A DNA stretch of 37,238 bases, taken from NCBI GenBank assembly GCA_031119205.1, contig JAVHYF010000039.1:1-37238 (forward strand), read 5' to 3'. This DNA is from Moraxellaceae bacterium (GTDB lineage: Bacteria; Pseudomonadota; Gammaproteobacteria; Burkholderiales; Rhodocyclaceae). This document shows positions 16,145 to 36,576 of this stretch, one piece after another. The first letter of the stretch is position 1. The number at the start of each line of letters is the position of its first letter. The notes beneath the pieces were generated by a model. The model was not told the DNA's origin, did no database searches, and saw nothing but the letters and a program-made list of their open reading frames with translations. A program made the position numbers and the translations under genes.

Positions 16145-16161
16145 TGCACCACCCGCGGGCA
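16145..16161. promoter_or_regulatory. Candidate NtrC-binding site upstream of atzF (proximal)
   Basis: The sequence tgcaccacccgcgggca matches the NtrC consensus TGCACC-N5-GGTGCA at 10 of 12 defined positions. Its centre is about 123 bp upstream of the predicted sigma-54 transcription start, a normal enhancer distance. Confidence 0.45.
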
Positions 16162-16249: not shown

Positions 16250-16265
16250 TGGCACGACGTTTGCG
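16250..16265 (+). promoter_or_regulatory. Sigma-54 (-24/-12) promoter of atzF
   Basis: TGGCAC-gacgt-TTGC matches the consensus TGGCAC-N5-TTGC exactly, with the invariant GG and GC ten bases apart. The predicted start is near 16276, 25 nt before the atzF ATG. Confidence 0.75.
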
Positions 16266-16274
16266 TATGCAGAC

Positions 16275-16284
16275 TTGTATACAA
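16275..16284. promoter_or_regulatory. Palindromic operator at the atzF transcription start (FadR/FCD-GntR type)
   Basis: TTGTATACAA is a perfect 10-bp palindrome fitting the FadR-subfamily consensus TNGT-N-ACNA. It covers the start predicted from the sigma-54 element. Near-identical sites overlie two other sigma-54-type promoters of the cluster (31451-31460 and 31814-31823). The likely binder is the FCD-type GntR protein encoded at 27808-28521. Confidence 0.65.
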
Positions 16285-16300
16285 CAAGCCGTCGCCAGCC

Positions 16301-18112
16301 ATGAACGCCGCTCTCCAGTCCGCCTGTCCCGATCTCGCCATCGATCGCCTGCGTGAAGCCTACGCACAGGGGAAGTCCTCCCCCACTGCGACGGTCGAGG
16401 CGGTGTATGCGCGCATCGCGGCGCTGGGCGAGACGCATGCGTGGATTGCGCTGGTGCCGCGCGAGCAGGCGCTGGCGCGCGCTGCCGAACTGGAAGCCGC
16501 CGGACCGGGCGACAAGCCGCTATGGGGAATCCCGTTCGCAGTGAAGGACAACATCGACGTGGCCGGCATGCCGACCACCGCGGCCTGCCCGGCCTTCGCC
16601 TATACACCCGAAAAAAGCGCCACCGTCGTGCAGCGCCTGGTGGATGCCGGCGCCATCGTCATCGGCAAGACCAACCTCGACCAGTTCGCCACGGGGCTTG
16701 TCGGCACCCGTTCTCCATACGGGGCACCGAGTTCAGTGTTCAGTGCCGCGCACGTGTCCGGTGGTTCCAGCTCCGGCTCCGCGGTGGTGGTCGCCAACGG
16801 CTCGGTGAGTTTCGCGCTGGGCACCGACACCGCAGGCTCCGGCCGCGTGCCGGCGATGTTCAACAACATCGTGGGCCACAAGCCCACCAAGGGCTGGCTG
16901 CCGACCACTGGCGTGGTGCCGGCCTGCCGCTCCATCGATTGCGTGTCGGTGCTGGCCCTGTCGTCCACCGAATGCTGGCAGGTGCTCAGCGTGGCGGGGG
17001 GCGTGGATGCTACCGACCCCTGGTCGCGCGCACCGGCCCCCGTCGGCCTGCCGGCACGGCCGCGCATCGGCGTGCTGCGGGCGGATCAACGCGAGTTCTA
17101 CGGTGACACCGAGTCGGCCGCCGCCTATGACAATGCGATCGCCGGCCTCGCCGAGTTCGGCGACATCGTCGAGTTCGACTTCGCGCCGTTCCGCGAAGCG
17201 GCGCTGATGCTTTACGAAGGCGCGCCGGTGGCCGAGCGCCTGGAGGCCGCGGGCGACATGCTGGCGACCAATCCGAGGGCGATGGACCCGACCGTCGCCG
17301 CAGTGGTCGCCAAGGGCAACCAGTTCACCGCGAAGGATGCCTGGGCCGCGCGCACCCGCCTCGAAGCCCTGCGCAAGCAGGCCGAAGAGATCTTCGCCGG
17401 CCTGCACGTGCTGGCGCTGCCGACCTCGCCGACGCACAACACGCATGCGGCCGTGCAGGCCGATCCGGTCGCGCGCAACAGCCAGCACGGCCACTACACC
17501 AACTTCGCCAATCTGCTGGACCTCGCCTGCATCGCGGTTCCCACCGGCTTCAAGCCGGACGGCTTGCCGGTCGGCATCACCCTGTTCGGCCCGGCGTGGA
17601 GCGACGCCGCGCTGGCCGCACTGGGCGAACGCGTGCACCGCGCCTCCGGCCTCACCGGCGGTGCCACCGGCCATGTGCCGGTTGCACCGGCCACGCGCTT
17701 CGACTGGCCGGCACAGGCCGACGAGGTACGCGTCGTGGTGGTGGGCGCGCACCTCAGCGGCATGCCGCTGAATCGCGAGCTGACCGAACGTGCCGCGCGC
17801 TTCGTGTGCGCCACGCAGACCGCGCCCCACTACCGACTGTATGCCCTGCCCAACACCACACCGCCGAAGCCGGGCCTGGTGCGCGTGGCCGACGGCGGCA
17901 CCGGCATCGCGGTGGAAGTGTGGGCGATGAGTCGCGCCGCCTACGGTGACTTCGTGTCGCGCATCCCGCCACCGATGGGCATCGGCAACGTGGTGCTGGC
18001 CGACGGCAGCACCGTGCAGGGCTTCTGGTGCGAGTCCATTGCCCTGCAGGGCGCGCAGGACATCTCGGAATTCGGTGGCTGGCGGGCCTACATCGCCAGC
18101 CTGAGGAAATAG
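16301..18112 (+). CDS. atzF: Allophanate hydrolase AtzF
   Basis: 603 aa. Hydrolyses allophanate (and urea-1,3-dicarboxylate) to ammonia and CO2 in the cytoplasm, the last step of urea-oligomer and s-triazine-ring breakdown. An amidase-signature domain (about 1-450) holds the Ser-cisSer-Lys triad: Lys82 (AVKDNIDVAGMP), Ser156 (GGSSSGS) and Ser180 (DTAGSGRVP). A C-terminal AtzF domain (about 480-603) ends in VQGFWCESIALQGAQDISEFG, typical of full-length allophanate hydrolases rather than plain amidases. ATG 16301 is preferred over an upstream extension because it gives a 25-nt leader from a sigma-54 promoter; no clear ribosome site is seen. Followed after 115 bp by an oligopeptide-type ABC operon on the same strand. 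Confidence 0.94.
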   Translation: MNAALQSACPDLAIDRLREAYAQGKSSPTATVEAVYARIAALGETHAWIALVPREQALARAAELEAAGPGDKPLWGIPFAVKDNIDVAGMPTTAACPAFAYTPEKSATVVQRLVDAGAIVIGKTNLDQFATGLVGTRSPYGAPSSVFSAAHVSGGSSSGSAVVVANGSVSFALGTDTAGSGRVPAMFNNIVGHKPTKGWLPTTGVVPACRSIDCVSVLALSSTECWQVLSVAGGVDATDPWSRAPAPVGLPARPRIGVLRADQREFYGDTESAAAYDNAIAGLAEFGDIVEFDFAPFREAALMLYEGAPVAERLEAAGDMLATNPRAMDPTVAAVVAKGNQFTAKDAWAARTRLEALRKQAEEIFAGLHVLALPTSPTHNTHAAVQADPVARNSQHGHYTNFANLLDLACIAVPTGFKPDGLPVGITLFGPAWSDAALAALGERVHRASGLTGGATGHVPVAPATRFDWPAQADEVRVVVVGAHLSGMPLNRELTERAARFVCATQTAPHYRLYALPNTTPPKPGLVRVADGGTGIAVEVWAMSRAAYGDFVSRIPPPMGIGNVVLADGSTVQGFWCESIALQGAQDISEFGGWRAYIASLRK

Positions 18113-18117
18113 CAGAG

Positions 18118-18149
18118 AGTCAGAGCAGACAGTCAGAGCAGGCAGTCAG
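18118..18149. repeat. 13-bp tandem repeat after atzF
   Basis: Two copies of agtcagagcag(a/g)c plus a partial third follow the atzF stop codon directly. No gene; the array occupies part of the 115-bp gap to the binding-protein gene and shows no terminator. Confidence 0.7.
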
Positions 18150-18227
18150 CCGCTGCAAGCAGCTTCAGTCATACGGAAACCGCGTTCGCCACTTCGCATG
18201 GACGACCGCATATCAAGGAGAAGAGTC

Positions 18228-19829
18228 ATGTCGATGTGGAAGCACGCCCTCTTCGGAGCGGCGGTGGCGCTGGCGGTCAGCCTGCCTGCGCAGGCGCAGG
18301 ACGCCCGCAAGGAAACCCTGCTGGTGGTGAACGAGACCGGCCCCAACAGCCTGGACATCCATGCTGTCGGCGCCAACCGTCCGTCATACGGCGTGGCCTG
18401 GCTGGCCTACGACCGCCTGATGAGCTTCGGCCGCAAGACCGTGAATGGCGTGGCCTACTACGACTACACCAAGCTCACGCCGGAGCTGGCAGAGAGCTGG
18501 GAGATCGCCAAGGACGGCATGTCCGTCACCTTCAAGCTGCGCCGCGACGCGAAGTTCCACGACGGCTCGCCGGTGACGGCTGCCGACGTGAAGTGGAGCT
18601 ACGACCGCGCGCTGGCGATGGGCGGCTTCCCGCAGTTCCAGATGATGGCGGGCTCGCTGGAAAAGCCCGAGCAGTTCGAGGCGGTCGACACCCACACTTT
18701 CCGCGTCAAGTTCCTGAAGAAGGACAAGCTGTCCATGCCCGACATGGCGGTGCCGGTGCCCAGCATCTACAACGCGACGCTGGCGAAGAAGAACGCCACC
18801 GCACAGGACCCCTGGGCCGCTGCCTGGCTGAAGAACAACACCGCCGGTGGCGGCGCCTTCAAGGTGGCGAGCTGGAAGCCGGGCCAGGAAATCGTCTACG
18901 AACGTTTCGACGACTGGAAGAGCGGCCCGCTGCCGAAGCTGAAGCGCGTGATCCAGCGTGAAGTGCCCTCTGCCGGTACGCGTCGCGCGCTGATCGAGCG
19001 GGGCGATGCCGACATGAGCTTCGAGATGCCGCCCAAGGACTTCGCCCTGCTGTCGCAGGAGAAGACCGGCAACCTGCTGGTGAAGAGCACGCCGGTGGAG
19101 AACGCGCTCTGGTACATCGGCATGAACGTGAACAACCCGCCGTTCAACAACGTGAAGGTGCGCCAGGCCATCGCCTACGCCGTGCCTTACGAGAAGATGT
19201 TCACCCGCGCTTTCTACGGCCGCGCCATCAAGCTGTGGGGCGGCAAACCCGGGCCGGTGGCGACCGCCGCCTGGCCCGCTACGCACGGCTACAACACCGA
19301 CATCGCCAAGGCCAAGGCGCTGCTCGCCGAGGCGGGTTATCCCAATGGCTTCGAGACCACGCTGTCCTTCGACCTCGGCCAGGGCACCGTGTCCGAACCG
19401 ATGGCCGTGCTGCTGCAGGAGTCGCTCGCCGAGCTGGGCATCAAGGCCACCATCAACAAGGTGCCGGGCGCCAACTGGCGCGCGCAGATGCTCAAGAAGG
19501 ACATGCCGATCTTCATCAACCGCTTCGGTGGCTGGCTGAACTACCCGGAGTACTTCTTCTTCTGGAACTTCCACAGCTCCGACCCGGTGTTCAACACCAG
19601 CGGCTACAAGAACCCGAAGATGGACGCGCTGATCGAGAAGGCGCGTTACGAGACCGATCCGAAGAAGTACGACGCCGAAGTGAAGGGCTTCATCGACCTG
19701 CTGCATACCGACCTGCCGCGCATTCCGGTGGCACAGCCGGTGATGGACGTGGTGATGGGCAAGCACGTCAGTGGCTACCAGTACTGGTTCCACATCCAGC
19801 CGGACTATCGCTTGATCGAGAAGCAGTAG
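18228..19829 (+). CDS. ABC transporter substrate-binding protein, family 5 (DppA/OppA/NikA type)
   Basis: 533 aa. Sec signal peptide with cleavage likely after PAQA (residue 23). The mature protein is a bacterial extracellular solute-binding family 5 protein: LTPELAESWEIAKDGMSVTFKLRRDAKFHDGSPVTAADV is the family's signature region, shortened here to its recognisable parts LAESW and FHDGSPVTAADV. The ATG at 18228 follows a strong AAGGAG site. It feeds the DppBCDF-like permease and ATPases directly downstream. Family members bind peptides, nickel, or small polar compounds. Cotranscription with atzF, under a nitrogen-type promoter, suggests a nitrogen-rich substrate; the ligand itself cannot be read from sequence. 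Confidence 0.9.
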   Translation: MSMWKHALFGAAVALAVSLPAQAQDARKETLLVVNETGPNSLDIHAVGANRPSYGVAWLAYDRLMSFGRKTVNGVAYYDYTKLTPELAESWEIAKDGMSVTFKLRRDAKFHDGSPVTAADVKWSYDRALAMGGFPQFQMMAGSLEKPEQFEAVDTHTFRVKFLKKDKLSMPDMAVPVPSIYNATLAKKNATAQDPWAAAWLKNNTAGGGAFKVASWKPGQEIVYERFDDWKSGPLPKLKRVIQREVPSAGTRRALIERGDADMSFEMPPKDFALLSQEKTGNLLVKSTPVENALWYIGMNVNNPPFNNVKVRQAIAYAVPYEKMFTRAFYGRAIKLWGGKPGPVATAAWPATHGYNTDIAKAKALLAEAGYPNGFETTLSFDLGQGTVSEPMAVLLQESLAELGIKATINKVPGANWRAQMLKKDMPIFINRFGGWLNYPEYFFFWNFHSSDPVFNTSGYKNPKMDALIEKARYETDPKKYDAEVKGFIDLLHTDLPRIPVAQPVMDVVMGKHVSGYQYWFHIQPDYRLIEKQ

Positions 19830-19851
19830 TCACGCGGCATAGGCCTACTGC

Positions 19852-19925
19852 GGGGGCCGATCTTGAGACTGTGGTGCTCGTCGTACCTTCGTACGACTCC
19901 GCTCCGCGTCTCAACCTCGGCCCCC
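19852..19925. repeat. Large three-tier hairpin between binding-protein and permease genes
   Basis: Nested inverted repeats: gggggccga/tcggccccc (9 bp), then ttgagac/gtctcaa (7 bp), then an inner perfect stem gtcgtac-cttc-gtacgac (19880-19897). Together they form a 74-nt stem-loop in the 195-bp gap before the permease gene. No U-tract follows. It probably protects the upstream mRNA or partly attenuates the downstream genes. Confidence 0.8.
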
Positions 19926-20024
19926 TCGCTACGGCCTCTGCCACATGACGACGCATCGTTCGAGTAACCGCCTGATGCTCGCCAAGGCCCCAATCAGATC
20001 GACTCCCGGAGAAGGAGCGCTGCG

Positions 20025-21035
20025 ATGAAACTCATCCTCAAACGCCTGCTGCTCGCGTTACCCAACCTCGTCGGCGTCATCGTCGTCACCTTCGTGCTGA
20101 CGCGCGCGCTGCCGGGAGACCCCGCGGCGTACTTCGCCGGTGCTGCGGCGACGCCGGAGGCGGTGGCGCAGGTGCGCACGCAGCTCGGGCTGGATCGCCC
20201 GATGTTCGAGCAGTTCCTGAGCTACGTCAGCGATCTGGCCAAGGGCGACTGGGGTGTGTCGCTGGCGACCGGGCAGTCGGTGATCAGCGAGCTGAAGGGG
20301 CGCCTGCCGGCGTCGCTGGAGCTGACGTTGTTCGGACTGGTGCTGGCGGTCAGCGTGGCGGTGCCGCTGGGGGTGCTGGCGGCGACGCGGCCGAACTCGG
20401 CCTGGGACCACGGCGTGCGCGCGCTCACCACCGCGGGCGTTTCGCTGCCGACCTTCTTCACCGGCCTGCTGCTGGTGTACGTCTTCTACTACAAGCTGGG
20501 CTGGGCACCGTCGCCGAGCGGGCGCATCGATGCCTTCGTGTCCTCGCCACCCACGGTCACCGGCTTCTACATCATCGACAGCCTCATCGCCGGTGACTTC
20601 ACGGCGCTGTGGGCGAGCATCAAGCAGCTCATCCTGCCGGCCGGCACGCTGGCGCTGTTCGTGCTGGCCCCACTGGCGCGCATGACGCGTGCCTCGATGC
20701 TGGGCGTGCTGTCGTCGGACTTCATCCGTACCGCACGCGCCTCCGGTCTCACGCCGATGACCGTGCTCTACACCTACGCGCTGCGCAACGCGCTGCTGCC
20801 GGTGCTCACCACGCTGGGCATGGTGTTCTCCTTCCTGCTCGGCTCCAACGTGCTGGTAGAGAAAGTGTTCGCCTGGCCGGGTATCGGCTCCTTCGCCATC
20901 GAATCGCTGGTGGCTTCCGACTACGCGCCGGTGCAGGGCTTCGTGCTGTCGATGGCGCTGCTCTACGTGTTGCTCAACCTGCTGATCGACCTGGCCTACA
21001 CCTGGCTCGATCCGCGCATCGCGCTGGAGGGCTGA
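20025..21035 (+). CDS. ABC transporter permease, DppB/OppB family
   Basis: 336 aa. Inner-membrane channel subunit with the usual N-terminal helix MKLILKRLLLALPNLVGVIV and the conserved ALPGDPA segment (about 28-34). Further helices lie near 100-120, 140-157, 202-220, 257-277 and 300-325. The EAA loop SDFIRTARASGLTPMTVLY (about 231-249) docks on the ATPases. A strong GGAGAAGGAG ribosome site precedes the ATG. First gene after the SBP-permease hairpin; 2 bp separate it from the next permease. Confidence 0.92.
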   Translation: MKLILKRLLLALPNLVGVIVVTFVLTRALPGDPAAYFAGAAATPEAVAQVRTQLGLDRPMFEQFLSYVSDLAKGDWGVSLATGQSVISELKGRLPASLELTLFGLVLAVSVAVPLGVLAATRPNSAWDHGVRALTTAGVSLPTFFTGLLLVYVFYYKLGWAPSPSGRIDAFVSSPPTVTGFYIIDSLIAGDFTALWASIKQLILPAGTLALFVLAPLARMTRASMLGVLSSDFIRTARASGLTPMTVLYTYALRNALLPVLTTLGMVFSFLLGSNVLVEKVFAWPGIGSFAIESLVASDYAPVQGFVLSMALLYVLLNLLIDLAYTWLDPRIALEG

Positions 21036-21037
21036 GC

Positions 21038-21877
21038 ATGGACATGAAGCACTTCAAGTATGTGCTGAAGGAAAACCCGGTCACCGGCTTCGCCTTCGTG
21101 CTGTTCGGCCTCTTCGTGCTGCTGGCGATCTTCGGCCCGCTGATCGCGCCTTTCGATCCGCTGGACTCCAACGCCGGCGAGCCGCTCACGCCGCCGTCGG
21201 CGCAGAACTGGTTCGGCACCGACTCCTTCGGTCGCGACATCTTCTCGCGGGTCATCATCGCCACGCGCCTGGACTTCGGCATCGCGCTGTCGGCGGTGCT
21301 GATCTCCTTCATCATCGGCTCCAGCATCGGCTGCGCGGCGGGCTTCTGGGGCGGCTGGCTGGACCGGGTGTCCAGCCGCGTGGCCGACACCATCATGGCC
21401 TTTCCGCTCTTCGTGCTGGCGATGGGCATCGTGGCCGCGCTGGGCAACACGGTGGGCAACGTCATCTACGCCACCGCCATCATCAATCTGCCGTTCTACA
21501 TGCGGGTCGCGCGGGCCGAGGCCAACGTGCGCCGCAATGCCGGTTTCATCGAGGCGGCACGCCTGGCCGGCAACCACGACGTGCGCATCCTCGCGGTGCA
21601 CATCTTCCCCAACATCCTGCCGCCGATGATGGTGCAGGTCTCGCTCAACATGGGCTGGGCCATCCTCAACGCGGCGGGTCTGTCCTTCATCGGCCTCGGC
21701 GTGCGGCCGCCGGAAGCGGAGTGGGGAATCATGGTCGCCGAGGGTGCGACCTACATCATCTCCGGCGAGTGGTGGGTCGCGCTGTTTCCCGGCGCGGTGC
21801 TGATGCTGGCGGTGTTCTGCTTCAACCTGATGGGCGACGGTCTGCGCGACCTGATCGACCCGAGGAGGCGCACATGA
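21038..21877 (+). CDS. ABC transporter permease, DppC/OppC family
   Basis: 279 aa. Partner of the DppB-like subunit. OppC N-terminal region with NWFGTDSFGRDIFSRVI (about 57-73) and EAA loop GFIEAARLAGNHDVRIL (about 169-185), followed by PNILPP. Six helices predicted. The C-terminus LMGDGLRDLIDPRRR is typical of the family. The stop codon overlaps the next gene's ATG (ATGA-type coupling), so translation is probably coupled. Confidence 0.92.
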   Translation: MDMKHFKYVLKENPVTGFAFVLFGLFVLLAIFGPLIAPFDPLDSNAGEPLTPPSAQNWFGTDSFGRDIFSRVIIATRLDFGIALSAVLISFIIGSSIGCAAGFWGGWLDRVSSRVADTIMAFPLFVLAMGIVAALGNTVGNVIYATAIINLPFYMRVARAEANVRRNAGFIEAARLAGNHDVRILAVHIFPNILPPMMVQVSLNMGWAILNAAGLSFIGLGVRPPEAEWGIMVAEGATYIISGEWWVALFPGAVLMLAVFCFNLMGDGLRDLIDPRRRT

Positions 21878-22893
21878 GTCCCGAAACCATCGTTCATGCT
21901 GACCCGCGGGCCGCCGCCAATGTGCCGCCACCCCTGCTGGCCGTCGACGGCCTGTCACTGGAGTTCCGCACCCGCAGCGGCGTGGTGCGCGCGCTGGAAG
22001 ACGTATCGCTGAGCCTGCAGAAGGGCGAGTTGCTCGGCGTGGTCGGCGAGAGCGGCTCCGGCAAATCGGTGTTCGCCTACGCGATGCTGGGCATCTCGGA
22101 CGCCGCGGCGAAGATCACGCGTGGCACCGCGGTGTTCGACGGCATGGACCTGCTGGGCGCGACCGAACGTGAGTTGCGCGAGATCCGTGGGCGCGAAGTG
22201 TCGATGATCTTCCAGAGCCCACGCACTTCATTGAACCCGATCCGCAAGGTCGGCCACCAGATCGAGGACGTGCTGCGGCGTCATGCCGCGGTACGTGGTC
22301 AGGACCTGCGCGAGCGCGCCATCGATTGCCTGAAGCGGGTGCGCATCCCGGACCCGGCGCGGCGCTACGAGGCCTATCCCTTCGAGCTGTCCGGCGGTAT
22401 GTGCCAGCGCATCCTCATCGCGCTGGCACTGGCCTGCCAGCCCTCGCTGCTGATCGCCGACGAACCCACCACCGGCCTGGACGTGACCACCCAGGCGGCG
22501 ATCATGGATCTCATCGTCGAGTTGGCGCACGAGCGCCAGATGGCCACCTTGCTGATCACCCACGACCTTGCGATGGCCGCGCAGTACTGCGACCGCATCG
22601 CGGTGATGCACGCCGGCCACGTGGTGGAAGTCGGCCCCGCGCAAGTAGTGCTGCACCAGCCGCAGCATCCCTACACCGCGCGACTCATTGCCTCCACGCC
22701 ACATACCGCCGACAGCATCGCGGCGATGCAGCCGATTCCCGGTTCACTGCCGGATCTGCGTGCGGCGAAGTTGCCACCGTGTCGCTACAGCGCACGCTGC
22801 GAGTACCGCACCGAACGTTGTGATACCGAGGCGCTGCCGGTGGTGCCGATCGACGCCACGCACAGCGTCCGCTGCTGGAGGGCCGCAGCATGA
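21874..22893 (+). CDS. ABC transporter ATP-binding protein, DppD/OppD family
   Basis: 339 aa. Walker A GESGSGKS (about 58-65), Q-loop Gln114, Walker B LLIADEPT (about 192-199) and H-loop His230 are all present. The signature is LSGGM (about 172-176) rather than LSGGQ, a change common in this family. The C-terminal oligopeptide-transporter domain has HPYTARLI and a cysteine cluster (Cys303, Cys309, Cys316) corresponding to the metal or iron-sulfur site of Dpp ATPases. A GAGGAGG ribosome site lies at the end of the permease gene. It works as a heterodimer with the next gene product. Confidence 0.92.
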   Translation: MSPETIVHADPRAAANVPPPLLAVDGLSLEFRTRSGVVRALEDVSLSLQKGELLGVVGESGSGKSVFAYAMLGISDAAAKITRGTAVFDGMDLLGATERELREIRGREVSMIFQSPRTSLNPIRKVGHQIEDVLRRHAAVRGQDLRERAIDCLKRVRIPDPARRYEAYPFELSGGMCQRILIALALACQPSLLIADEPTTGLDVTTQAAIMDLIVELAHERQMATLLITHDLAMAAQYCDRIAVMHAGHVVEVGPAQVVLHQPQHPYTARLIASTPHTADSIAAMQPIPGSLPDLRAAKLPPCRYSARCEYRTERCDTEALPVVPIDATHSVRCWRAAA

Positions 22894-23861
22894 ATGCGCC
22901 GGAACGCAACATCCCGCTGCTGCGCGTGCAGCGCCTGCAGAAGCACTTCAAGGTCGGCCGTAACGCGATGCTGCATGCGGTGGACGACATCAGCTTCGAC
23001 ATCGCCCCCGGTGAGAGCGTCGGCCTGGTGGGCGAGTCCGGCTGTGGCAAGAGCACCCTGTCGCGGGTCATCGCGCGCCTGGCAGATCCCACCAGCGGCG
23101 CGCTGCAGTTCGAGGACGTGGACCTCGCCGTGCACCCGGCTGCGAAGTTCGCGCGCGACTCGCGCCGCGGCGTCATCCAGATGGTGTTCCAGGACGCTAA
23201 CGATAGCCTCAACCCGCGCTATACCGCCTTCGACACCATCGCCGAGTCATTGCGCCTGCTGGTCGGCATGAAGGACGCTGCGCAGATCAAGGCGCGTGTC
23301 GAGGAGCTGGCGACCTGGGTCGGCCTGCCGGTGGACCTGCTGTCGCGCTACCCGCATCAGCTGTCTGGCGGGCAGAAGGCGCGCGTGGGCATCGCGCGTG
23401 CGCTGGCGCCGTCACCGCGCCTGCTGATCCTTGACGAGCCGACCGCCGCGCTGGACGTGTCGGTGCAGGCCACCGTGCTGCAGTTGCTGGCCGAGCTGCG
23501 TGACAAGCTCGGCGTGGCCTACCTGTTCGTGTCGCACGACCTCAACGTGGTGCGCCTGCTGTGCGATCGCGTGGTGGTGATGTACCTCGGCAAGGTGGTG
23601 GAGGAGGGGCCGGCGGAGGCGGTGTTCACCACGCCGCGCCACCCCTACACGCAGGCGCTGGTGGCCGCGATTCCGGACCCGGATGCGCGCGGCAGGAAGA
23701 CGGTGCGTGCGGAAGGCGAGCCGCGCAGCCCGATCAACCCGGACCCGCGCGCCTGCCGCTTCCACGGCCGTTGCCCCAAGGGCGAGCCGAAGTGCGAGCT
23801 GACGATGCTGGACCTGAAAGAAGTCGCGCCGGCGCACCGGGTGGCCTGCCACTTCGCCTGA
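22890..23861 (+). CDS. ABC transporter ATP-binding protein, DppF/OppF family
   Basis: 323 aa. Second ATPase of the importer: Walker A GESGCGKST (about 48-56), Gln101, signature LSGGQ (about 158-162), Walker B LLILDEPT (about 178-185), His216, and the C-terminal CRFHGRCPKGEPKC cysteine cluster. The start codon overlaps the stop of the preceding gene. Last gene of the atzF-initiated run; about 70 bp further on lies a small convergent gene. No clear intrinsic terminator is visible after it. Confidence 0.92.
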   Translation: MNAPERNIPLLRVQRLQKHFKVGRNAMLHAVDDISFDIAPGESVGLVGESGCGKSTLSRVIARLADPTSGALQFEDVDLAVHPAAKFARDSRRGVIQMVFQDANDSLNPRYTAFDTIAESLRLLVGMKDAAQIKARVEELATWVGLPVDLLSRYPHQLSGGQKARVGIARALAPSPRLLILDEPTAALDVSVQATVLQLLAELRDKLGVAYLFVSHDLNVVRLLCDRVVVMYLGKVVEEGPAEAVFTTPRHPYTQALVAAIPDPDARGRKTVRAEGEPRSPINPDPRACRFHGRCPKGEPKCELTMLDLKEVAPAHRVACHFA

Positions 23862-23933
23862 ACATGGTGCTCAGACCGGGCGGGCTCCGGCGGGCCGGCG
23901 CGCAGTGATGCGTGCCTGCGGCGGCAGTGCGGC

Positions 23934-24086
23934 TCAGGCCGCGTCGCTGCTGGTGTCGCTGCCGTGGCTGCGCTTTTCCAGCCATTGCGCGAACTGGTGG
24001 CGGTAGTTCATGCCTACCACCACGGCGCCGACGCCGACGGCGAAACCGATGAGAATCCAGTTGGTGACTTCTGCCATGTTGACCAT
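23934..24086 (-). CDS. 50-residue single-span membrane protein
   Basis: A short frame starts MVNMAEVTNWILIGFAVGVG and continues AVVVGMNYRHQFAQWLEKRS, so one hydrophobic helix (about 9-25) is followed by a basic stretch and an acidic tail. A strong AGAGGAA ribosome site sits 6-7 bases before the ATG, which makes it convincing despite its size. It is convergent with the dppF-like gene. Family not recognised. Small single-span proteins of this kind often modulate a membrane partner, but no partner is evident here. Confidence 0.6.
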   Translation of the reverse strand: MVNMAEVTNWILIGFAVGVGAVVVGMNYRHQFAQWLEKRSHGSDTSSDAA

Positions 24087-24131
24087 GATGCGTTCCTCTT
24101 GTCGGGTGTGTTCAGGAGTGTTCGGGCTACG

Positions 24132-24149
24132 GCTGCATTACATTGCAGC
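24132..24149. promoter_or_regulatory. Inverted repeat upstream of the 50-aa gene
   Basis: Arms gctgca and tgcagc with a ttacat spacer, 46 bp upstream of the small gene. Possibly an operator; the binder is unknown. Confidence 0.35.
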
Positions 24150-24203
24150 GCGCAAAACGCGGCAATCCGGCGCGCTACCGATTTCGACGTAAGAACGGTG
24201 CTG

Positions 24204-24221
24204 ACTCGGGTTGACCCGAGT
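24204..24221. repeat. Perfect hairpin between putA end and the small gene
   Basis: Arms actcggg and cccgagt around ttga. It lies downstream of putA on the minus strand, about 130 bp after the stop, without a T-run. Confidence 0.35.
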
Positions 24222-24349
24222 AGGCCGTGAGCCGCGTGCCAGCAGGGTTCACGGCAGGCGAATGCCGGCAAGAGAGGTGTCGCCCGCGGGCGAACGTGAC
24301 GGAATCCCCGGCACGACATCCGGGCACCGACTATGGCGTGATATCTGCC

Positions 24350-27300: not shown

Positions 27301-27643
27301 TCAGCGCGTCGCGGGTGGCGGAGTCAGGAATGCGCAGCAGGGCCTCGGCGAGGCACATCAGGGCGATGCCCTCCTGCGAGTCCAGGGAGAACTCGTGCAT
27401 CAGCGCGTCCACGCCGGCCGCGTGGCGGCGTTGGTCGCGCAGGCTGTGGATCAGGCCGCGGGCACGGGTCTGGATGCGGCGCTCGGCCGCGTCATCCAGG
27501 GGCACGGCGGCGAGCAGCTCGGCCACGCAGGCCGTCTCGTCGCGCAGCGTCGCGGCAGTGATGGCTGCGCGTAGCGCCGTGGCCGGGGGCAACACCTCGG
27601 CATGCAGGGACGCAAACGGATCGGGTGCCAGGGGCGTGGGCAT
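24350..27643 (-). CDS. putA: Bifunctional proline dehydrogenase / L-glutamate gamma-semialdehyde dehydrogenase PutA
   Basis: 1097 aa. Oxidises proline to glutamate in two steps with FAD and NAD+, peripheral to the inner membrane. The PRODH barrel (about 170-480) has MVRLVKGAYWDSEI and FATHNALTVATLIEMG. The P5C dehydrogenase half (about 560-1010) has ISPWNFPLAIFTGQ, FTGSTEVA, the Glu motif ETGGVNAM and the nucleophile in SAGQRCSAL (Cys about 838). The C-terminus AASGGNASLMSL is the conserved PutA tail. It lacks the N-terminal ribbon-helix-helix of trifunctional PutA (E. coli, about 1320 aa), so it cannot repress itself; the FCD-type GntR gene 164 bp upstream may do that job instead. Confidence 0.95.
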   Translation of the reverse strand: MPTPLAPDPFASLHAEVLPPATALRAAITAATLRDETACVAELLAAVPLDDAAERRIQTRARGLIHSLRDQRRHAAGVDALMHEFSLDSQEGIALMCLAEALLRIPDSATRDALIRDKLGHADWQAHLGHSPSLFVNAAAWGLVITGKLMSPVGEHGLASALRGAVLRSGEGLIRHGMDLAMRMLGEQFIAGRNIDEALQRAQASELRGYRHSYDMLGEAALCTEDAERYFQAYADAIEAVGRASAGRGVEAGPGVSIKLSALHPCYQRSQRERVMNELLPRLQQLVHQAAQYDIGLNIDAEEADRLELSLDLFEALAQDVATTGYTGLGFVVQAYQRRATRVVDWLAELALRSRRRLMVRLVKGAYWDSEIHRAQAAGLASYPVFTRKPHTDLSYLACAARLFGHAAEDGRLYPQFATHNALTVATLIEMGRALPVSRTPAWEFQCLHGMGEGLYDQIVSATPGDSESRHPCRVYDPVGPHDSLLAYLVRRLLENGANSSFVNRLVDAETSIDSLLEQPAEQVRRQLGSPHPRIPPPAELYAPLRQNSRGLDFTNEDSLRQLHEALRPFGTRQWFAAPTVGLAGKPAFVVNPADHGDLVGEVCPATLAAVETALRQSTAAIADWAKVSSVRRAELLERAADRLEAAQAEFIALLVREAGKTLPNAQGEIREAVDFLRYYAAQVRRMSLRGMPRGLIACISPWNFPLAIFTGQVAAALAAGNVVIAKPAEQTPLVAARMVSLLHEAGIPQAVLALLPGDGDTVGAALVRDERVAGVMFTGSTEVADSIRRAQQKLPGTRMLIAETGGVNAMIVDSSALPEQAVTDALSSAFDSAGQRCSALRVLCLQEEIAPRMLPLLQGAMRELGIANPARLGTDIGPVIDEQARRKLHTYVEDMRTAGYPMTQLPLPVHCAQGTFFPPTLIEIERIRQLQGEVFGPVLHVMRWQRGSLAALIGDINATGYGLTMGVHSRIDETVEYVRRRAQVGNLYVNRNMIGAVVGVQPFGGEGRSGTGPKAGGPLILHRLRNGPSDLPAVVGAEALAPDQWSLPGPAGEDNRLYFTPREPGEAAVNPFPRERSVTRNLAASGGNASLMSLRD

Positions 27644-27746
27644 TGAGTCCCCGAAGTGAACGAAGGCCTGCTATCAGTATGGGTGCAACATAAAGGGTTT
27701 CAAAGGCCGGCCGGGCGGCCTTTGCAGGGGAACGAGCGGTCACTGC

Positions 27747-27768
27747 CCGGCCCGTGGTGGCGGGCCGG
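27747..27768. terminator. GC-rich hairpin between GntR gene and putA
   Basis: Arms ccggcccg and cgggccgg with loop tggtgg. It is downstream of the GntR gene on the minus strand, but with no T-run; a weak attenuator at best. Confidence 0.3.
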
Positions 27769-27807
27769 CACAACAGGGGCGGGGAGGGAAGTTGGACCCC
27801 CGGGGGC

Positions 27808-28521
27808 TCAGCCCGCGGCGATGGTCTGGCGCGCGGCCTGCAGGCGGTGGATGGTGATCTTGCGCACCTCCGCCTTGCTCTCTTCGATGTGGGTCTTCAG
27901 CAGCAGGCAGGCCTGGTCGGCGCGGTGGCGCAACACCGCCTGCAGGATCTTGCCGTGCTCGGCGTAGGTGCGCTCCACACGGTAGTTCTGCGTGAAATCC
28001 AGGCGGCGGATGATGCGGATACGCTCGATGACGTCGCCGTGCACCCGTGCGACTTCCGGGTTGTCGGCAGCGTCCACCAGCGCGGTGTGGAAGGCCTCGT
28101 CGAGTTGGGCCACCGTCTGCCCATCCATCTCGCGCGACTCCTCCGGCCCCAGCCAGATCCGGCGCAGCGGCTCCAGGCTTTCCAGTTCGGTCTTGTGCTC
28201 GCACAGGCTGCGTACCGCAGCGGCTTCGAGGATGTAACGCAGTTCGTAGAGGTTCTCGAACATCTCGAAGTCGAAGGGCCGCACGCTCCAGCCGTTGCGG
28301 AAATGCACGTACAGGTAGCCCTCCCGCTCCAGCCGGTACAGCGCCTCGCGCACCGGCGTACGCGACACGCCGAGGCGGTCGGCGATCTGCGTCTCGGTGA
28401 AGCGGTCGCCCGGCAGCAGGCGGAAATCGAAGATGTCCTCCTTGACGCGGCGGTAGACGTGGTCGACGCGGGAGCCGGCGATGTCGGGGGCGGCCTCTTC
28501 GGGCGTTGAACGTTCAGGCAT
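27808..28521 (-). CDS. FadR-subfamily GntR regulator with FCD domain
   Basis: 237 aa. Winged helix (about 18-82) with FTETQIADRLGVSRTPVREA, then an FCD effector domain (about 90-225) that keeps the four metal-ligand positions Asp141, His145, His189 and His211. Such regulators bind small carboxylates through a zinc or nickel ion and recognise TNGT-N-ACNA palindromes. Three TTGTATACAA-like sites overlie the promoters of atzF, atzGE and the BMP operon in this window, so it is the obvious candidate for that repressor; allophanate- or biuret-like carboxylates would suit an FCD pocket. The alternative is control of putA, which lies downstream on the same strand. No matching palindrome is seen before its own gene. 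Confidence 0.9.
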   Translation of the reverse strand: MPERSTPEEAAPDIAGSRVDHVYRRVKEDIFDFRLLPGDRFTETQIADRLGVSRTPVREALYRLEREGYLYVHFRNGWSVRPFDFEMFENLYELRYILEAAAVRSLCEHKTELESLEPLRRIWLGPEESREMDGQTVAQLDEAFHTALVDAADNPEVARVHGDVIERIRIIRRLDFTQNYRVERTYAEHGKILQAVLRHRADQACLLLKTHIEESKAEVRKITIHRLQAARQTIAAG

Positions 28522-28699
28522 GGTGGTTATGCGAGCTGGGTTTCAGGGTAGGCGGGCTGACCACGGGCCGATCATGACAAAAGTCAGACTTTGGCGTGAG
28601 TGTGTCGCAGTGTTGCTGCCGCTGCTGCCTATACTCGTGCGCCGGCGGGAGGAGCCGGCATGTTTCAAATTTCTCAACTTTGCGGATCAAGGAGCTGCA

Positions 28700-29698
28700 A
28701 TGCAAAACAACGCGCGCCCGGTCAAGGGCGCCCTGCTGTGGGTCGGGGCCATCGCACTGGGTTTGTTGTCGGGTTGTGCCATAAACATGAAGGTGCCGCT
28801 GAAGGATCCGGCGCCGAGCACCGCGCCGTATGCCAAGCAGGCGCCGGTTGCCCCCACCAGCCTGTCTTTCAAGGACGAGCGTCCGACTGCCGACCGCGGC
28901 AAGCTGATGACGGGTTTCGTGCCCATGCAGCTGATGTACAAGGATAAGCCCTTTGACCCGGTTCCCTATGTGGCCGAGAACACGGTCAAGGAGCTCACCG
29001 CACGCGGCATTCCCGTGCAACTGGCAGCTGATGGCAAGGGCGCCCAGGCCGTCGGTGTGAAGTACATGCACATCGAGTTGCACCGTGCCAGCGGCTTCTC
29101 GCCATTCGTCACCTTTACCAGCCTGCGCGCTGACATCGACACGCCGCAGGGCCCGCAGCGGGTTACCGCCTACGTCAAGCGCGGCAAGGTGCCGGTGTGG
29201 ACCTTCGACGAGATCATCGACCCCACCTTCAACGAGCCGATGTCGATCCTGACCAAGGAGCTGGCGGCCAAGATCAACCAGCGCGTCTACGGTCAGGCGG
29301 CGACCGACGACCAGGTGGCGGGCTGGGTGGCCAACATCAACAAGAACGGCACCACGCAGGAGGCGGTCTATCACGACGTCTACCAGCTGGGCTTCGGCAA
29401 CAATCCGAAGGCCGTGCCGGAACTGGTGAAGCTGACGAAGCACTCGGCGGAGTACATCCGTCTGGCGGCGATCTCCTCGCTGGGCATCCTGCGCGCGAAC
29501 GACCAGTTCGGCCTGCTGAAGAGCCTGTTCGAAGACAAGACGGTGATCTGGCAGGACCGCGCCATGGCACTGAAGGCCATCGGCGATCTGGGTTCGGCCG
29601 AGTCGCGCGACTACCTGCAGAAGGAGTGGAAGCGTGTCGAGAACCTGAGCGACAAGGAGTCCGCCTGGAACAAGGAAATCATCGGCCTGTACCTCTGA
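28700..29698 (+). CDS. Putative lipoprotein with C-terminal HEAT-like repeats
   Basis: 332 aa. Lipobox LLSGC with Cys26 indicates a lipoprotein. The ATG follows a strong AAGGAG site. Residues about 50-200 resemble a lipoprotein beta-rich domain (LSFKDERPT...FDPVPYVAENTVKELTARGIPV), similar in layout to uncharacterised YajG-like lipoproteins. About 230-320 show helical repeats with AVPELVKLTKHSAEYIRLAAISSLG, the pattern of HEAT/armadillo-type repeats. Function unknown. It is transcribed alone: divergent from the GntR gene and followed by a strong terminator, so it is probably not part of the surrounding nitrogen cluster. Confidence 0.78.
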   Translation: MQNNARPVKGALLWVGAIALGLLSGCAINMKVPLKDPAPSTAPYAKQAPVAPTSLSFKDERPTADRGKLMTGFVPMQLMYKDKPFDPVPYVAENTVKELTARGIPVQLAADGKGAQAVGVKYMHIELHRASGFSPFVTFTSLRADIDTPQGPQRVTAYVKRGKVPVWTFDEIIDPTFNEPMSILTKELAAKINQRVYGQAATDDQVAGWVANINKNGTTQEAVYHDVYQLGFGNNPKAVPELVKLTKHSAEYIRLAAISSLGILRANDQFGLLKSLFEDKTVIWQDRAMALKAIGDLGSAESRDYLQKEWKRVENLSDKESAWNKEIIGLYL

Positions 29699-29745
29699 GC
29701 CGGTTGATGCCGCCGCGCTGCTGAGCCGGCGCGCACTTTCCTGCG

Positions 29746-29782
29746 ACCCCGTCCGGTACCTGTCGTACCGGGCGGGGTTTTT
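29746..29782 (+). terminator. Rho-independent terminator after the lipoprotein gene
   Basis: Stem accccg-t-ccggtac paired with gtaccgg-g-cggggt (14 bp with one G-U), loop ctgtc, followed by ttttt on the plus strand. Confidence 0.88.
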
Positions 29783-29820
29783 CGTTTGGCGGCGCGCCAT
29801 GGTGTTCATCGTCCTGGCGC

Positions 29821-31221
29821 TCAGCCGTGCCTGAAGCACAACCCCGTGCTTTCCAGCAGGCCGGCGGCGGCCAGCGCGAGGTCTTCGCGGCCCGGCGCGG
29901 CGATGATCTGCACGGCGATGGGCAGGCCTTCCGGGGTGGGCATCGGTACCGCCACCACCGGCAGGCCGACGCTGGAGATCGGCTGGGTGAGCAGGCCGAT
30001 GGAGGGGCGGGCGGGCACGCGGCCGGCGGGCAGGTTGAGCCATTCCGCGCCGACCCGGGTGGCGACGCAGGGGGTGGCGGGCGCGATCAGCAGGTCGGCC
30101 TGCTCGAAGAGTTTCAGCGCGGCTTCGCGGGCGATGCGGCGGGCGCGCTGGGCGTGGGCCAGCCAGGCGGCGGGCAGCAGGCTGCCGGCGAGCAGGCGGT
30201 CGCGGTTGGCGGGCTCCATCTGGGCGTAGTGATCGCGCAGTTCGTCGCGGTACAGCTCACCGGCGGTGCTGGCGGTGATGACGAAGGCCACCGAGCGGGC
30301 CAGCGCGGCGTCCTTGAATTCGATCTCCTGCGTGCTGCCGAGCGCGCGCGCGACGGTGGTGGCGACGCCACGCGCTTCCGGCATGGCCCAGTCGTCGAAC
30401 CAGCCGGTCAGGCGTGCGACGCGCAGGCCGCCGAGTCCTTCGGTCTGCGCCTTGAGCAGGGCGGCTTCGGTGGGTTGTGCGGGGGCGGGGCGGCAGGCGG
30501 CGTCCAGCGGATCGCGGCCGGCCAGCGCGTCGAAGATGCGGGCGAGGTCGCGTGCACTGCGCGCGAAGGGGCCGACGTGGTCGATGTCATGCACGAAAGG
30601 TCGCGAGCCACCGCGTGACAGTCCGCCGAAAGTCGGCTTCAGGCCGAAGGTGCCGCAGAAGGACGACGGCACCCGGATGGAGCCGTTGGTGTCGCTGCCC
30701 AGCGAGTAGGCGCACAGGCCGGCCGCCACCGCTGCGGCACTGCCGCCGGATGAGCCACCGGCTACGCGGCTGTCGTCCAGCGGGTTGCGGGTGGTGCCGT
30801 GGAAGGTGTTCTCGGTGGTGAAGCCGTAGGCGTAGGCGTCCATGTTCAGCGCGCCCAGCAGCACGCTGCCGGCGGCGGCACAGCGTTGCACCAGGGTGGC
30901 ATCTGCCTGCGCGGGGGCGCCGGCGCGGTCGCGGTGGCCGCCGGCCAGGGTGGGCATGCCGGCGATGTCGAACAGGTTCTTCACCGCGTAGGGCACACCG
31001 GCCAGTGGTGGCAGCGTCTCGCCGTTCTTGCGGCGGATGTCGATGGCATCGGCCTCGGCGAGTGCGCGTTCGCTGGTGAGGTCGGTATAGGCGCGCAGCT
31101 GGACGTCGCGGGCGGCGATGGCCTGCAGGGAGGCTTCGGCAAGTGCGCGGGCGGTGATCTCGCCATTGGCGATGGCATCCGCCTGGCGCCAGGCGGGCAG
31201 GGACAGGTAGTTGCTGCTCAT
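29821..31221 (-). CDS. atzE: 1-carboxybiuret hydrolase catalytic subunit AtzE
   Basis: 466 aa amidase-signature enzyme. With AtzG it deaminates 1-carboxybiuret to urea-1,3-dicarboxylate, which AtzF then finishes. Triad: Lys81 (YAVKNLFDIAG), Ser157 (GGSSGGS) and Ser181 (DTNGSIRVP). HGTTRNPLDDSRVAGG and the FVHDIDHVGPFARS region are characteristic of the AtzE-like branch. The call over a generic Glu-tRNA amidotransferase A-like amidase rests chiefly on the AtzG-type small gene 7 bp upstream. No gatB or gatC is nearby. A hydrolase pair making carboxybiuret would normally involve AtzD (cyanuric acid) or a triuret hydrolase; only the latter type is present here. Confidence 0.88.
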   Translation of the reverse strand: MSSNYLSLPAWRQADAIANGEITARALAEASLQAIAARDVQLRAYTDLTSERALAEADAIDIRRKNGETLPPLAGVPYAVKNLFDIAGMPTLAGGHRDRAGAPAQADATLVQRCAAAGSVLLGALNMDAYAYGFTTENTFHGTTRNPLDDSRVAGGSSGGSAAAVAAGLCAYSLGSDTNGSIRVPSSFCGTFGLKPTFGGLSRGGSRPFVHDIDHVGPFARSARDLARIFDALAGRDPLDAACRPAPAQPTEAALLKAQTEGLGGLRVARLTGWFDDWAMPEARGVATTVARALGSTQEIEFKDAALARSVAFVITASTAGELYRDELRDHYAQMEPANRDRLLAGSLLPAAWLAHAQRARRIAREAALKLFEQADLLIAPATPCVATRVGAEWLNLPAGRVPARPSIGLLTQPISSVGLPVVAVPMPTPEGLPIAVQIIAAPGREDLALAAAGLLESTGLCFRHG

Positions 31222-31228
31222 GCCGGCC

Positions 31229-31423
31229 TCAGGCGCGGTAGACCGAGGCGGGTTCGACCCGGTCGGACAGGTCGGCGGCCATCAGGGGGGCGGCGTTGCG
31301 GGCGATCAGCACCAGCTGCTGTGCCACGCGGCCGACCTGTTCGGCGTCCAGTTCATAGCCCTGCAGGGCGGCGGTCTGGCGCACGTAGGCGGCCCAGTCG
31401 AAGTCTTCCGGCAGCGAAGTCAA
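31229..31423 (-). CDS. atzG: 1-carboxybiuret hydrolase subunit AtzG (DUF4089), TTG start
   Basis: 64 aa from a TTG at 31423: MTSLPEDFDWAAYVRQTAAL, then ALQGYELDAEQVGRVAQQLV and the end DRVEPASVYRA. That GatC-like helix pattern and VEPA-xx-YRA tail are typical of AtzG, which stabilises AtzE as a heterotetramer. A strong GAGGAG site 7 bases upstream of the TTG decides the start. The ATG at 31456 is also in frame, but it would leave only about a 5-nt leader from the predicted sigma-54 start and has no ribosome site. The length from TTG also fits the known AtzG (about 68 aa). Coupled to atzE, 7 bp downstream. Confidence 0.85.
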   Translation of the reverse strand: MTSLPEDFDWAAYVRQTAALQGYELDAEQVGRVAQQLVLIARNAAPLMAADLSDRVEPASVYRA

Positions 31424-31450
31424 ACGAAGCTCCTCGTCATTGAGTGTTGC

Positions 31451-31460
31451 TTGCATACAT
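31451..31460. promoter_or_regulatory. Operator at the atzGE transcription start
   Basis: On the minus strand the site reads ATGTATGCAA, within gcATGTATGCAAgc. It matches the other two cluster operators at 8-9 of 10 core positions and begins at +1/+2 of the predicted atzGE start. Confidence 0.55.
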
Positions 31461-31470
31461 GCGTGTGGAC

Positions 31471-31487
31471 AAGCAAGGAGCGTTCCC
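31471..31487 (-). promoter_or_regulatory. Sigma-54-type promoter of atzGE
   Basis: Minus strand reads GGGAAC-gctcc-TTGCTT: the -12 TTGC is perfect, the -24 matches 4 of 6, and the invariant GG-N10-GC spacing is kept. Predicted start is near 31461. Confidence 0.55.
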
Positions 31488-31645
31488 CTGGGCGGCTGTG
31501 ATGTCACGTGTGCAGGCCGCTTCCGCCCCGCCATCTACCGGCCCTGCGCGGCGTCATGCAGATGCCCTGGCAGGGCGTGTGCATCCGGCGCTATGGCGAT
31601 GGCGGGGCAGAAAGCCCGGATCGTCTCCCCGCCATGGTGCGGCCA

Positions 31646-31662
31646 TGCACGGGCGAGGTGCC
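31646..31662. promoter_or_regulatory. Candidate NtrC site in the atzGE/BMP divergent region
   Basis: TGCAC-g-ggcga-GGTGC-c keeps 10 of 12 defined positions of TGCACC-N5-GGTGCA. It lies about 165 bp upstream of the BMP-operon start and about 190 bp from the atzGE start, so it could serve both promoters. Confidence 0.45.
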
Positions 31663-31792
31663 GGACGTGGTGGCGGGCGCTGCTTCCGGGCCGGCGGGTC
31701 TTGGCGCGGATGGGGCGGGACAAGGCGGCAGGCCCCGTGGCGCAAGGCTTGCAGCGCAGCCGGGCAGGCGTGGCAGATCGGGCCGGATGGCG

Positions 31793-31809
31793 TGGCACAG
31801 GCGTTGCTT
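31793..31809 (+). promoter_or_regulatory. Sigma-54 (-24/-12) promoter of the BMP-transporter/amiF operon
   Basis: TGGCAC-aggcg-TTGCT is an exact match to TGGCAC-N5-TTGCW. Predicted start is near 31819, giving a 145-nt leader to the binding-protein gene. Confidence 0.75.
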
Positions 31810-31810
31810 A

Positions 31811-31826
31811 ATCTTGTATGCAAGAT
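31811..31826. promoter_or_regulatory. Operator at the BMP-operon transcription start
   Basis: atcttg-tatg-caagat is an inverted repeat with 6-bp arms whose core TTGTATGCAA differs from the atzF operator at one base. It spans the predicted start at 31819. Confidence 0.65.
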
Positions 31827-33076: not shown

Positions 33077-33141
33077 CCGGGCGCACTGACGACCGGAGCT
33101 GGGCACCGGCGCGGGGGTTCGCCATGCAGCCATGCGCTGCA

Positions 33142-33214
33142 AGCGGGCCTCCCGCCCCGGCGCACCAGACGGGGCAGGGCGCCCCGGTGTGGGCTGGGCA
33201 ATGGGAGGCCCGCT
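33142..33214. repeat. Large inverted repeat between binding-protein and permease genes
   Basis: Perfect 12-bp arms agcgggcctccc (33142-33153) and gggaggcccgct (33203-33214), with an inner gccccg/cggggc stem. It sits in the 406-bp gap before the first permease gene, which otherwise holds no recognisable gene. No T-run follows, so attenuation or mRNA stabilisation is more likely than full termination. Confidence 0.75.
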
Positions 33215-33482
33215 GCTGCCGCAGAGCAGTATCCGCGCAGATGGACCCGTGGAACAGGGACGGGGCACGTCTTGGGTTCGGCGCGGAAGGAGCGGATGGC
33301 GGGGACATGGTGTTCAACCCACACCGGGGCGCCTTGCGGTGGATCGTCGCCAGCGTGCAACGGCACCGCGTGTCCGCTCGCATGTTCCTTGCGTGAGCTG
33401 TTGGTGACTTGCGCGGTGCTTTGACACTGAGCTGCGCAGCGACCTGCATTCCCCTGATCGTGACCGGACCTGACCAGACGTG

Positions 33483-35530: not shown

Positions 35531-35544
35531 ATGGAAGCCGTGGC

Positions 35545-36546: not shown

Positions 36547-36576
36547 CACACACCACCAGACAGAAGACCCCACACC

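Follow-up and report, generated by a model that had tools for sequence, protein, structure and literature searches.

The stretch of DNA considered here, hereafter the window, is the complete contig C14 (37,238 bases; JAVHYF010000039.1) of a Moraxellaceae bacterium whose genome comprises 4.63 Mb in 90 contigs (GCA_031119205.1). It carries two separated groups of genes for the breakdown of urea oligomers. One is headed by atzF, the gene for allophanate hydrolase; the other consists of the atzE–atzG pair (29821-31426, minus strand) and, divergent from it, an operon encoding a BMP-family binding protein, two permeases, a formamidase and the biuret amidohydrolase biuH (31964-37236, plus strand). 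Between the two groups lies the gene for a GntR-type regulator with an FCD domain, referred to below as FCD-GntR. The subject of this report is a composite element found upstream of atzF, atzGE and the BMP operon, in which a sigma-54 -24/-12 promoter element is combined with a palindromic dyad such as TTGTATACAA, together with the proposal that FCD-GntR is the repressor acting at these sites. Coordinates are collected in Table 1.

Three promoter–operator composites in the window

A sequence-only reading of the window had proposed a composite at each of these three promoters. All three were recovered, against a mean of 0.015 and a maximum of one in 200 dinucleotide shuffles, a comparison made at a cut-off chosen after the sites were known; at the cut-offs fixed for the wide tests (score 16, one mismatch, gap 4–21) the window holds two composites and the 200 shuffles none. 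The -24/-12 elements have the GG-N10-GC pattern in a TGGC/TTGC context and score 18.5 at atzF, 18.5 at the BMP operon and 17.0 at atzGE out of a maximum of 19, in line with the earlier description of the match as exact at the first two and partial at the last. The described identity of the dyad cores, 8–9 of 10 positions, likewise holds for each pair of the three operators.

Transcripts from sigma-54 promoters typically start 12 nt after the GC of the -12 element. Relative to starts predicted in this way the dyads span about -1 to +9 at atzF, -5 to +5 at the BMP operon and +2 to +11 at atzGE; each covers or adjoins the predicted start, but the position differs from site to site. In relatives the -12 GC and the dyad are separated by anything between 1 and 20 bp, most often by 8, 11–12 or 15–17, and the earlier placement of the palindrome exactly at +1 was therefore too strict.

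Across the source genome the motif WTGTATRCAA occurs at 12 places, three of them in the window. When the other nine were scored on both strands, one (C42:67721-67730) had a perfect, overlapping -24/-12 element and one (C41:109415) scored 16.0, the remainder scoring 15 or less. A strict spaced pattern matches only the atzF and BMP composites in this genome, and finds 27 places in 25 of 399 genomes of the order, with a reversed control giving 0 in every listed row; several of the 27 may be chance matches, and annotation covers those that lie in the fetched AtzF loci.

The operator as a tandem array

The operator is a tandem array of 10-bp dyads (TTGnATnCAA) at 12-bp steps. A single palindrome, taken as the operator at the outset, was replaced by this array after the dyad had been scored at every offset around 71 non-redundant sites, kept from 108 at one per promoter. 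Sharp side peaks were found at -12 (z 20.5) and +12 (z 14.3) against a null in which the letters of each flank were shuffled; the -12 signal is partly confounded by the promoter TTGC, from which the +12 signal is free. The consensus around the central dyad is TTGnATnCnATC-TTGTATACAA-GATGGnATnCAA, and a partner with at least five of eight matches is present on one side or more in 60 of the 71 sites and on both sides in 13. Where the gap is 8, the upstream dyad begins with the TTGC of the promoter. The geometry fits several dimers lying side by side across the start region.

Further composites with tandem dyads are found at L031:2527-2548 and L024:3450-3471. An SsuA-type ABC transporter gene adjoining atzF follows the former at about 350 bp, and this site is likely to mark an additional member of the regulon.

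Conservation among related genomes

Homologues of AtzE (E <= 1e-80) are present in nine of 297 genomes of the family, the source genome included. The sequence-only reading had named absence of the palindrome from orthologous promoters as one outcome that would count against it, and this outcome was not found. At atzF and atzG, G011 (a member of the same genus), G013 and G075 retain the -24/-12 element together with the dyad, and the pairing is conserved far beyond these genomes. G075 retains both at the BMP operon too, including an unchanged weak downstream partner, TCGTGCACAA. Three genomes whose GntR is 56–58% identical (G038, G001 and G063) have TTGTATCCAA or a variant of it, identified by eye, about 16 bp after the atzF -24/-12 element. 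Two genomes with AtzE, G024 and G085, have no dyad in the stretches fetched; a close GntR is missing from both, the best match in G085 being 28% identical and G024 giving none at E <= 1e-15.

Co-occurrence with the FCD-GntR regulator

The window regulator consists of a GntR winged helix (PF00392, 60.7 bits) followed by an FCD domain (PF07729, 73.3 bits), both over cut-off. D141, H145, H189 and H211 (D-x3-H, H, H) are invariant in seven sequences and align with solved FCD proteins. As putative metal ligands they would presumably suit a carboxylate bound through the metal, for instance allophanate. The protein falls below the cut-offs of the NCBIfam models for NanR (64.9 bits, cut-off 260) and HutC (20.5 bits, cut-off 220), and also below that of its best NCBIfam match, the Burkholderia PhnR model TIGR03338 (98.4 bits, cut-off 271.5).

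Searches with AtzF in 369 genomes of the class and 399 of the order gave matches in 41 and 94 respectively, from which 132 loci were selected by AtzF alone, one per genome and with the source genome excluded; second AtzF matches in G525, G669, G690, G830, G903 and G904 were left out, and G397, present in both searches, was counted once. The composite is found in 26 of the 40 loci with a GntR relative (tblastn, at least 100 bits) and in 3 of the 92 without, for which the Fisher value of 2.3e-14 overstates independence because the AtzF loci are related to each other and kinship is uncorrected. With the GntR threshold raised to at least 150 bits the counts are 22/33 and 7/99. Only distant relatives of the regulator, 34–42% identical, accompany five of the 26. 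The three composite loci with no linked GntR (G793, G830 and G913) each belong to a genome that encodes a 51–58% identical GntR elsewhere, so all 29 composite loci sit in genomes with such a regulator. Among urea-carboxylase AtzF loci without this GntR the composite was found in 0 of 63.

When the half-site was permuted, the real palindrome gave 29 loci, the best of 49 other palindromes 8 (ATGTATACAT, two letters away) and the next 4. In a second set of 80 loci, selected by GntR, the composite is present in 57, mostly at atzF (best control 8), and lies at most 400 bp upstream of a pathway gene in 52; the regulator is encoded near AtzF with urea carboxylase in 33 of the 80, or with AtzE, BiuH or BMP. 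The link that we propose between this GntR and the promoters rests on this strong co-occurrence which, together with the conservation, supports the earlier assignment of the three promoters to one regulon.

Two side observations concern distant regulators. At L148:5589 and L150:5592 the dyad TTGTATGCAA stands just upstream of a 39–40% identical GntR gene, with no good -24/-12 element, and autoregulation is possible there. At L156:18078, L158:1641 and L169:11737, near a 34–42% identical GntR, TTGTATACAA occurs inside CGTTGTATACAAC, and the operator may therefore predate the link with AtzF.

The sigma-54 and NtrC side

A dyad lies at most 300 bp upstream of AtzF in 24 loci, and in 19 of these a sigma-54 score of at least 16 is found before the dyad, compared with 0.5% in shuffles. 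Starting from the element instead, 22 loci have a strong one at most 400 bp upstream of AtzF, and all 19 dyads start 3–19 bp after the -12 C. Although this element-based scan covered both sides, from -200 to +60, every dyad that it detected lay downstream of the -12 element; the gap and co-occurrence scans covered the downstream side. NtrC-like sites matching at least 11 of 14 consensus positions are present in 28 of the 71 upstream regions, whereas shuffles give 1.2–1.6 and the downstream stretches 6 of 71. The better of the two candidate sites in the window precedes atzF, and the other lies where it could serve both the atzGE and the BMP promoters. The genome holds rpoN and one ntrC, over cut-off.

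Features of the window

Table 1. Promoter, operator and gene features of the window (positions are those of contig C14)
Feature	Position	Strand	Remarks
NtrC-like site TGCACCACCCGCGGGCA before atzF	16145..16161		11/14, some 97 bp ahead of the -24 element
-24/-12 element of atzF, TGGCACGACGTTTGC	16250..16264	+	retained upstream of AtzF in relatives
atzF weak partner dyad GCGTATGCAG	16263..16272		12 bp upstream, overlaps the -12 element; 5/8 informative positions
atzF operator, strong dyad TTGTATACAA	16275..16284		
atzF, allophanate hydrolase	16301..18112	+	Pfam Amidase and AH_C; TIGR02713 over cut-off
Oligopeptide-type ABC transporter behind atzF	18198-23861		
FCD-GntR regulator gene, proposed repressor	27808..28521	-	Pfam GntR and FCD; co-occurrence with the composite
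atzE, 1-carboxybiuret hydrolase family amidase	29821..31221	-	TIGR02715 and NF006631 over cut-off
atzG-like small subunit	31229..31426	-	Pfam AtzG-like, searched as 31229-31534
atzGE operator dyad ATGTATGCAA	31460-31451		
atzGE weak partner dyad TTGTCCACAC	31463..31472		12 bp towards the promoter; 5/8
-24/-12 element of atzGE, GGGAACGCTCCTTGC	31487-31473	-	GG and GC intact; TGGC without its T and C
NtrC-like site TGCACGGGCGAGGTGCC	31646..31662		10/14, between the divergent atzGE and BMP promoters
-24/-12 element of the BMP operon, TGGCACAGGCGTTGC	31793..31807	+	retained in G075 (L024:11969)
BMP operator, strong dyad TTGTATGCAA	31814..31823		
BMP weak partner dyad TCGTGCACAA	31826..31835		12 bp downstream; 5/8; identical letters in L024
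BMP-family substrate-binding protein, transporter operon gene 1	31964..33076	+	Pfam Bmp
BPD_transp_2 permeases, two	33480-34601 and 34598-35530	+	Pfam domain match
Formamidase	35545..36546	+	NF009803 over cut-off, searched as open reading frame 35344-36546; start from model match
biuH, biuret amidohydrolase, reaching the contig end	36577..37236	+	NF050097 over cut-off

The start codon of the atzG-like gene is uncertain and is probably the TTG that follows GAGGAG, as judged by eye. A lipoprotein-like gene (28700-29698, plus strand) lies between atzE and the regulator gene, which are 1.3 kb apart; the corresponding distance in L022–L024 is 430–530 bp. Roughly 400 bp (33077-33480) separate the BMP gene from the first permease, and no candidate gene was seen there. 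The contig stops directly 3′ of biuH (36577-37238), and the transporter ATPase therefore falls outside the window. In relatives, for example L034 (15911-18138), biuH is followed by an ABC ATPase match (about 30% to OppF) and by another homologue of BiuH (48%), which is TrtA-like by context.

Proposed mechanism and alternative explanations

We consider it quite probable that the three promoters form one regulon in which an array of FCD-GntR represses NtrC-activated sigma-54 promoters until a metabolite releases it. Sigma-54 RNA polymerase would occupy the -24/-12 elements and depend on an activator bound upstream, most likely NtrC acting under nitrogen shortage. Dimeric FCD-GntR would bind an array of dyads that covers the -12 element to about +25, in which weaker copies flank a strong one at a distance of 12 bp, on one side or on both, and would block open-complex formation or escape. 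A pathway metabolite would release the repressor, and expression would then need nitrogen shortage plus a pathway signal, which is likely to amount to a shared on/off switch for urea-like nitrogen-scavenging genes. The sites, their conservation, the array and the co-occurrence with the regulator are observed, whereas binding, repression, the choice of NtrC as activator and the inducer are inferred. In urea-carboxylase, carboxybiuret and biuret/triuret settings alike the regulator is found with allophanate hydrolase, so that allophanate, the intermediate that these routes have in common, would be the most economical inducer, although naming it is a guess.

A wider version of this model, which we hold to be conceivable rather than probable, would see a widespread family of allophanate-sensing FCD-GntR proteins binding cooperatively, as two to three dimers, to a 12-bp array that shares the -12 bases, and thereby locking sigma-54 polymerase on many beta- and gamma-proteobacterial routes to allophanate, those of urea carboxylase, biuret, triuret and carboxybiuret; at a hydantoin-racemase operon, with its own FCD-GntR and a dyad inside the -12 element, a distant paralogue would use the same design.

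That racemase operon belongs to the source genome and bears on the question of which protein reads the dyad. At C42:67721-67741 (L315:7722-7742, minus strand) the TTGC of a perfect -24/-12 element also makes up one half of the dyad, the first (TGGCACGGTCATTGCATACAT). An Asp/Glu/hydantoin racemase family gene follows at about 30 bp; beyond it, on the same strand, are those for a family 3 binding protein, a permease and an ABC ATPase, and behind these lies a second FCD-GntR gene. A dyad-like TTGCGTACAT is also seen just upstream, and an exact TTGTATACAA 213 bp away. The array might be the site of another regulator, such as an unlinked FCD-GntR or a LysR protein, with the linked FCD-GntR controlling something else; linkage does not equal binding, and the source genome encodes at least two further, weak GntR relatives (28%), of which the racemase-operon protein, with its similar dyad and sigma-54 element, is one. 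We nevertheless regard this as improbable, since the composite tracks the linked GntR over the 132 AtzF-selected loci, the genomes of the exceptions carry that GntR unlinked, and the urea-carboxylase loci that lack it have no composite. The C42 promoter does weaken any argument from the dyad alone, and co-occurrence is therefore the main support.

It is very unlikely, in our view, that GntR is instead an activator or co-activator, or that the dyads form an RNA element in the 5′ leader. At most sites the dyad does lie partly downstream of the predicted start, but about half of the BMP dyad precedes that start and would be untranscribed, a loopless 10-bp dyad alone is unable to form a hairpin, and sigma-54 activators normally bind upstream. 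Equally unlikely is the idea that the -24/-12 elements are decoys, another promoter being used and the dyads alone mattering. One-mismatch forms of TGGC-N7-TTGCW are common in the window (31 against 20 expected), and dyads with no good -24/-12 element exist at some GntR loci; set against this are the strong elements on the correct side of the dyad at 19 of the 24 dyad-bearing AtzF loci and the enrichment of NtrC-like sites further upstream.

Several observations weigh against the model of FCD-GntR repression at NtrC-activated promoters. The -24 element of atzGE is imperfect, and both the predicted starts and the scoring of NtrC-like sites rest on general rules, namely the +1 rule and the NtrC consensus. 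Fourteen of the 40 GntR-bearing AtzF loci have no composite at the cut-off: near variants are present in four (L184, L253, L258 and L153, the last with a gap of 1), a dyad with no good -24/-12 element in another four (L148, L150, L211 and L232), and six are unexplained. The composite is also missing from 23 of the 80 GntR-selected loci, some of which are on short contigs. An ntrC mutant of Burkholderia cenocepacia grew better, not worse, on biuret (PMC5491218), a result at odds with simple NtrC activation of biuret use in that organism, although its urea carboxylase gene requires NtrC. Finally, the C42 regulator is only 28% identical to that of the window, and with the dyad-on-sigma-54 design occurring twice in one genome beside two FCD-GntR proteins, the dyad alone does not name its regulator.

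Relation to known systems

HutC is a member of the GntR family and NanR is an FCD-GntR protein. In Pseudomonas sp. ADP the atzDEF genes of the cyanuric acid/biuret nitrogen pathway are controlled by the LysR protein AtzR, with involvement of sigma-54 and NtrC, and in such cyanuric acid operons the LysR regulator gene is divergent from atzD.

A close parallel is provided by Pseudomonas hutU, where a sigma-N promoter is activated by NtrC/CbrB and the HutC repressor is relieved by a pathway intermediate (PMC8871633). As hut already combines a specific repressor with NtrC/CbrB, the gate proposed here is not unusual in kind, contrary to the view taken in the sequence-only reading. Both cases concern a nitrogen-source catabolic operon with an NtrC-type sigma-N promoter and a specific repressor; they differ in that the dyads described here lie just downstream of the -12 element and the regulator has an FCD domain. 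For Escherichia coli NanR the accessible text of PMC8012715 describes a (GGTATA)3 operator on which three dimers bind cooperatively, and mentions no sigma-54 element. A GntR-type repressor and a repeated operator downstream of the polymerase site would be common to the two systems, whereas the NanR repeats are GGTATA, with dimers about half a turn apart on that account, and the array reported here has 10-bp dyads every 12 bp.

The enzymes of the window are the same as in the TrtA-BiuH-AtzF operons for triuret and biuret, in which biuret is converted via allophanate to ammonia (PMC7948467); the main text of that paper contains neither 'regulator' nor 'promoter' as a word. PMC13296017, PMC6368324 and PMC12625717 mention a GntR gene next to one for allophanate hydrolase or biuret hydrolase, and no description of an operator or sigma-54 link of such a GntR was found, in the text available, by literature searches whose coverage mostly excluded subscription journals. 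Searches on TTGTATACAA gave nothing on this regulon among the papers listed, judged by title; those that paired GntR with biuret, allophanate hydrolase or urea carboxylase yielded only gene-context mentions in the text available; those on cyanuric acid with sigma-54, AtzR or NtrC gave nothing on this regulon; and those on the GntR FadR subfamily with sigma-54 and the transcription start gave none fitting, by title only. Within these searches, the regulon, comprising biuret, triuret, carboxybiuret and urea-carboxylase genes in beta- and gamma-proteobacteria, and its array were found nowhere described.

For the question of how bacteria decide to use urea oligomers and the substrates of urea carboxylase, the analysis supplies a candidate regulator along with an operator model and a list of targets. 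The compounds concerned include triuret, an impurity of urea fertiliser (PMC7948467). It also offers a natural design, present across many genera, in which a putative repressor array lies over a sigma-54 promoter at variable spacing, and which would provide a clean test of promoter blocking.

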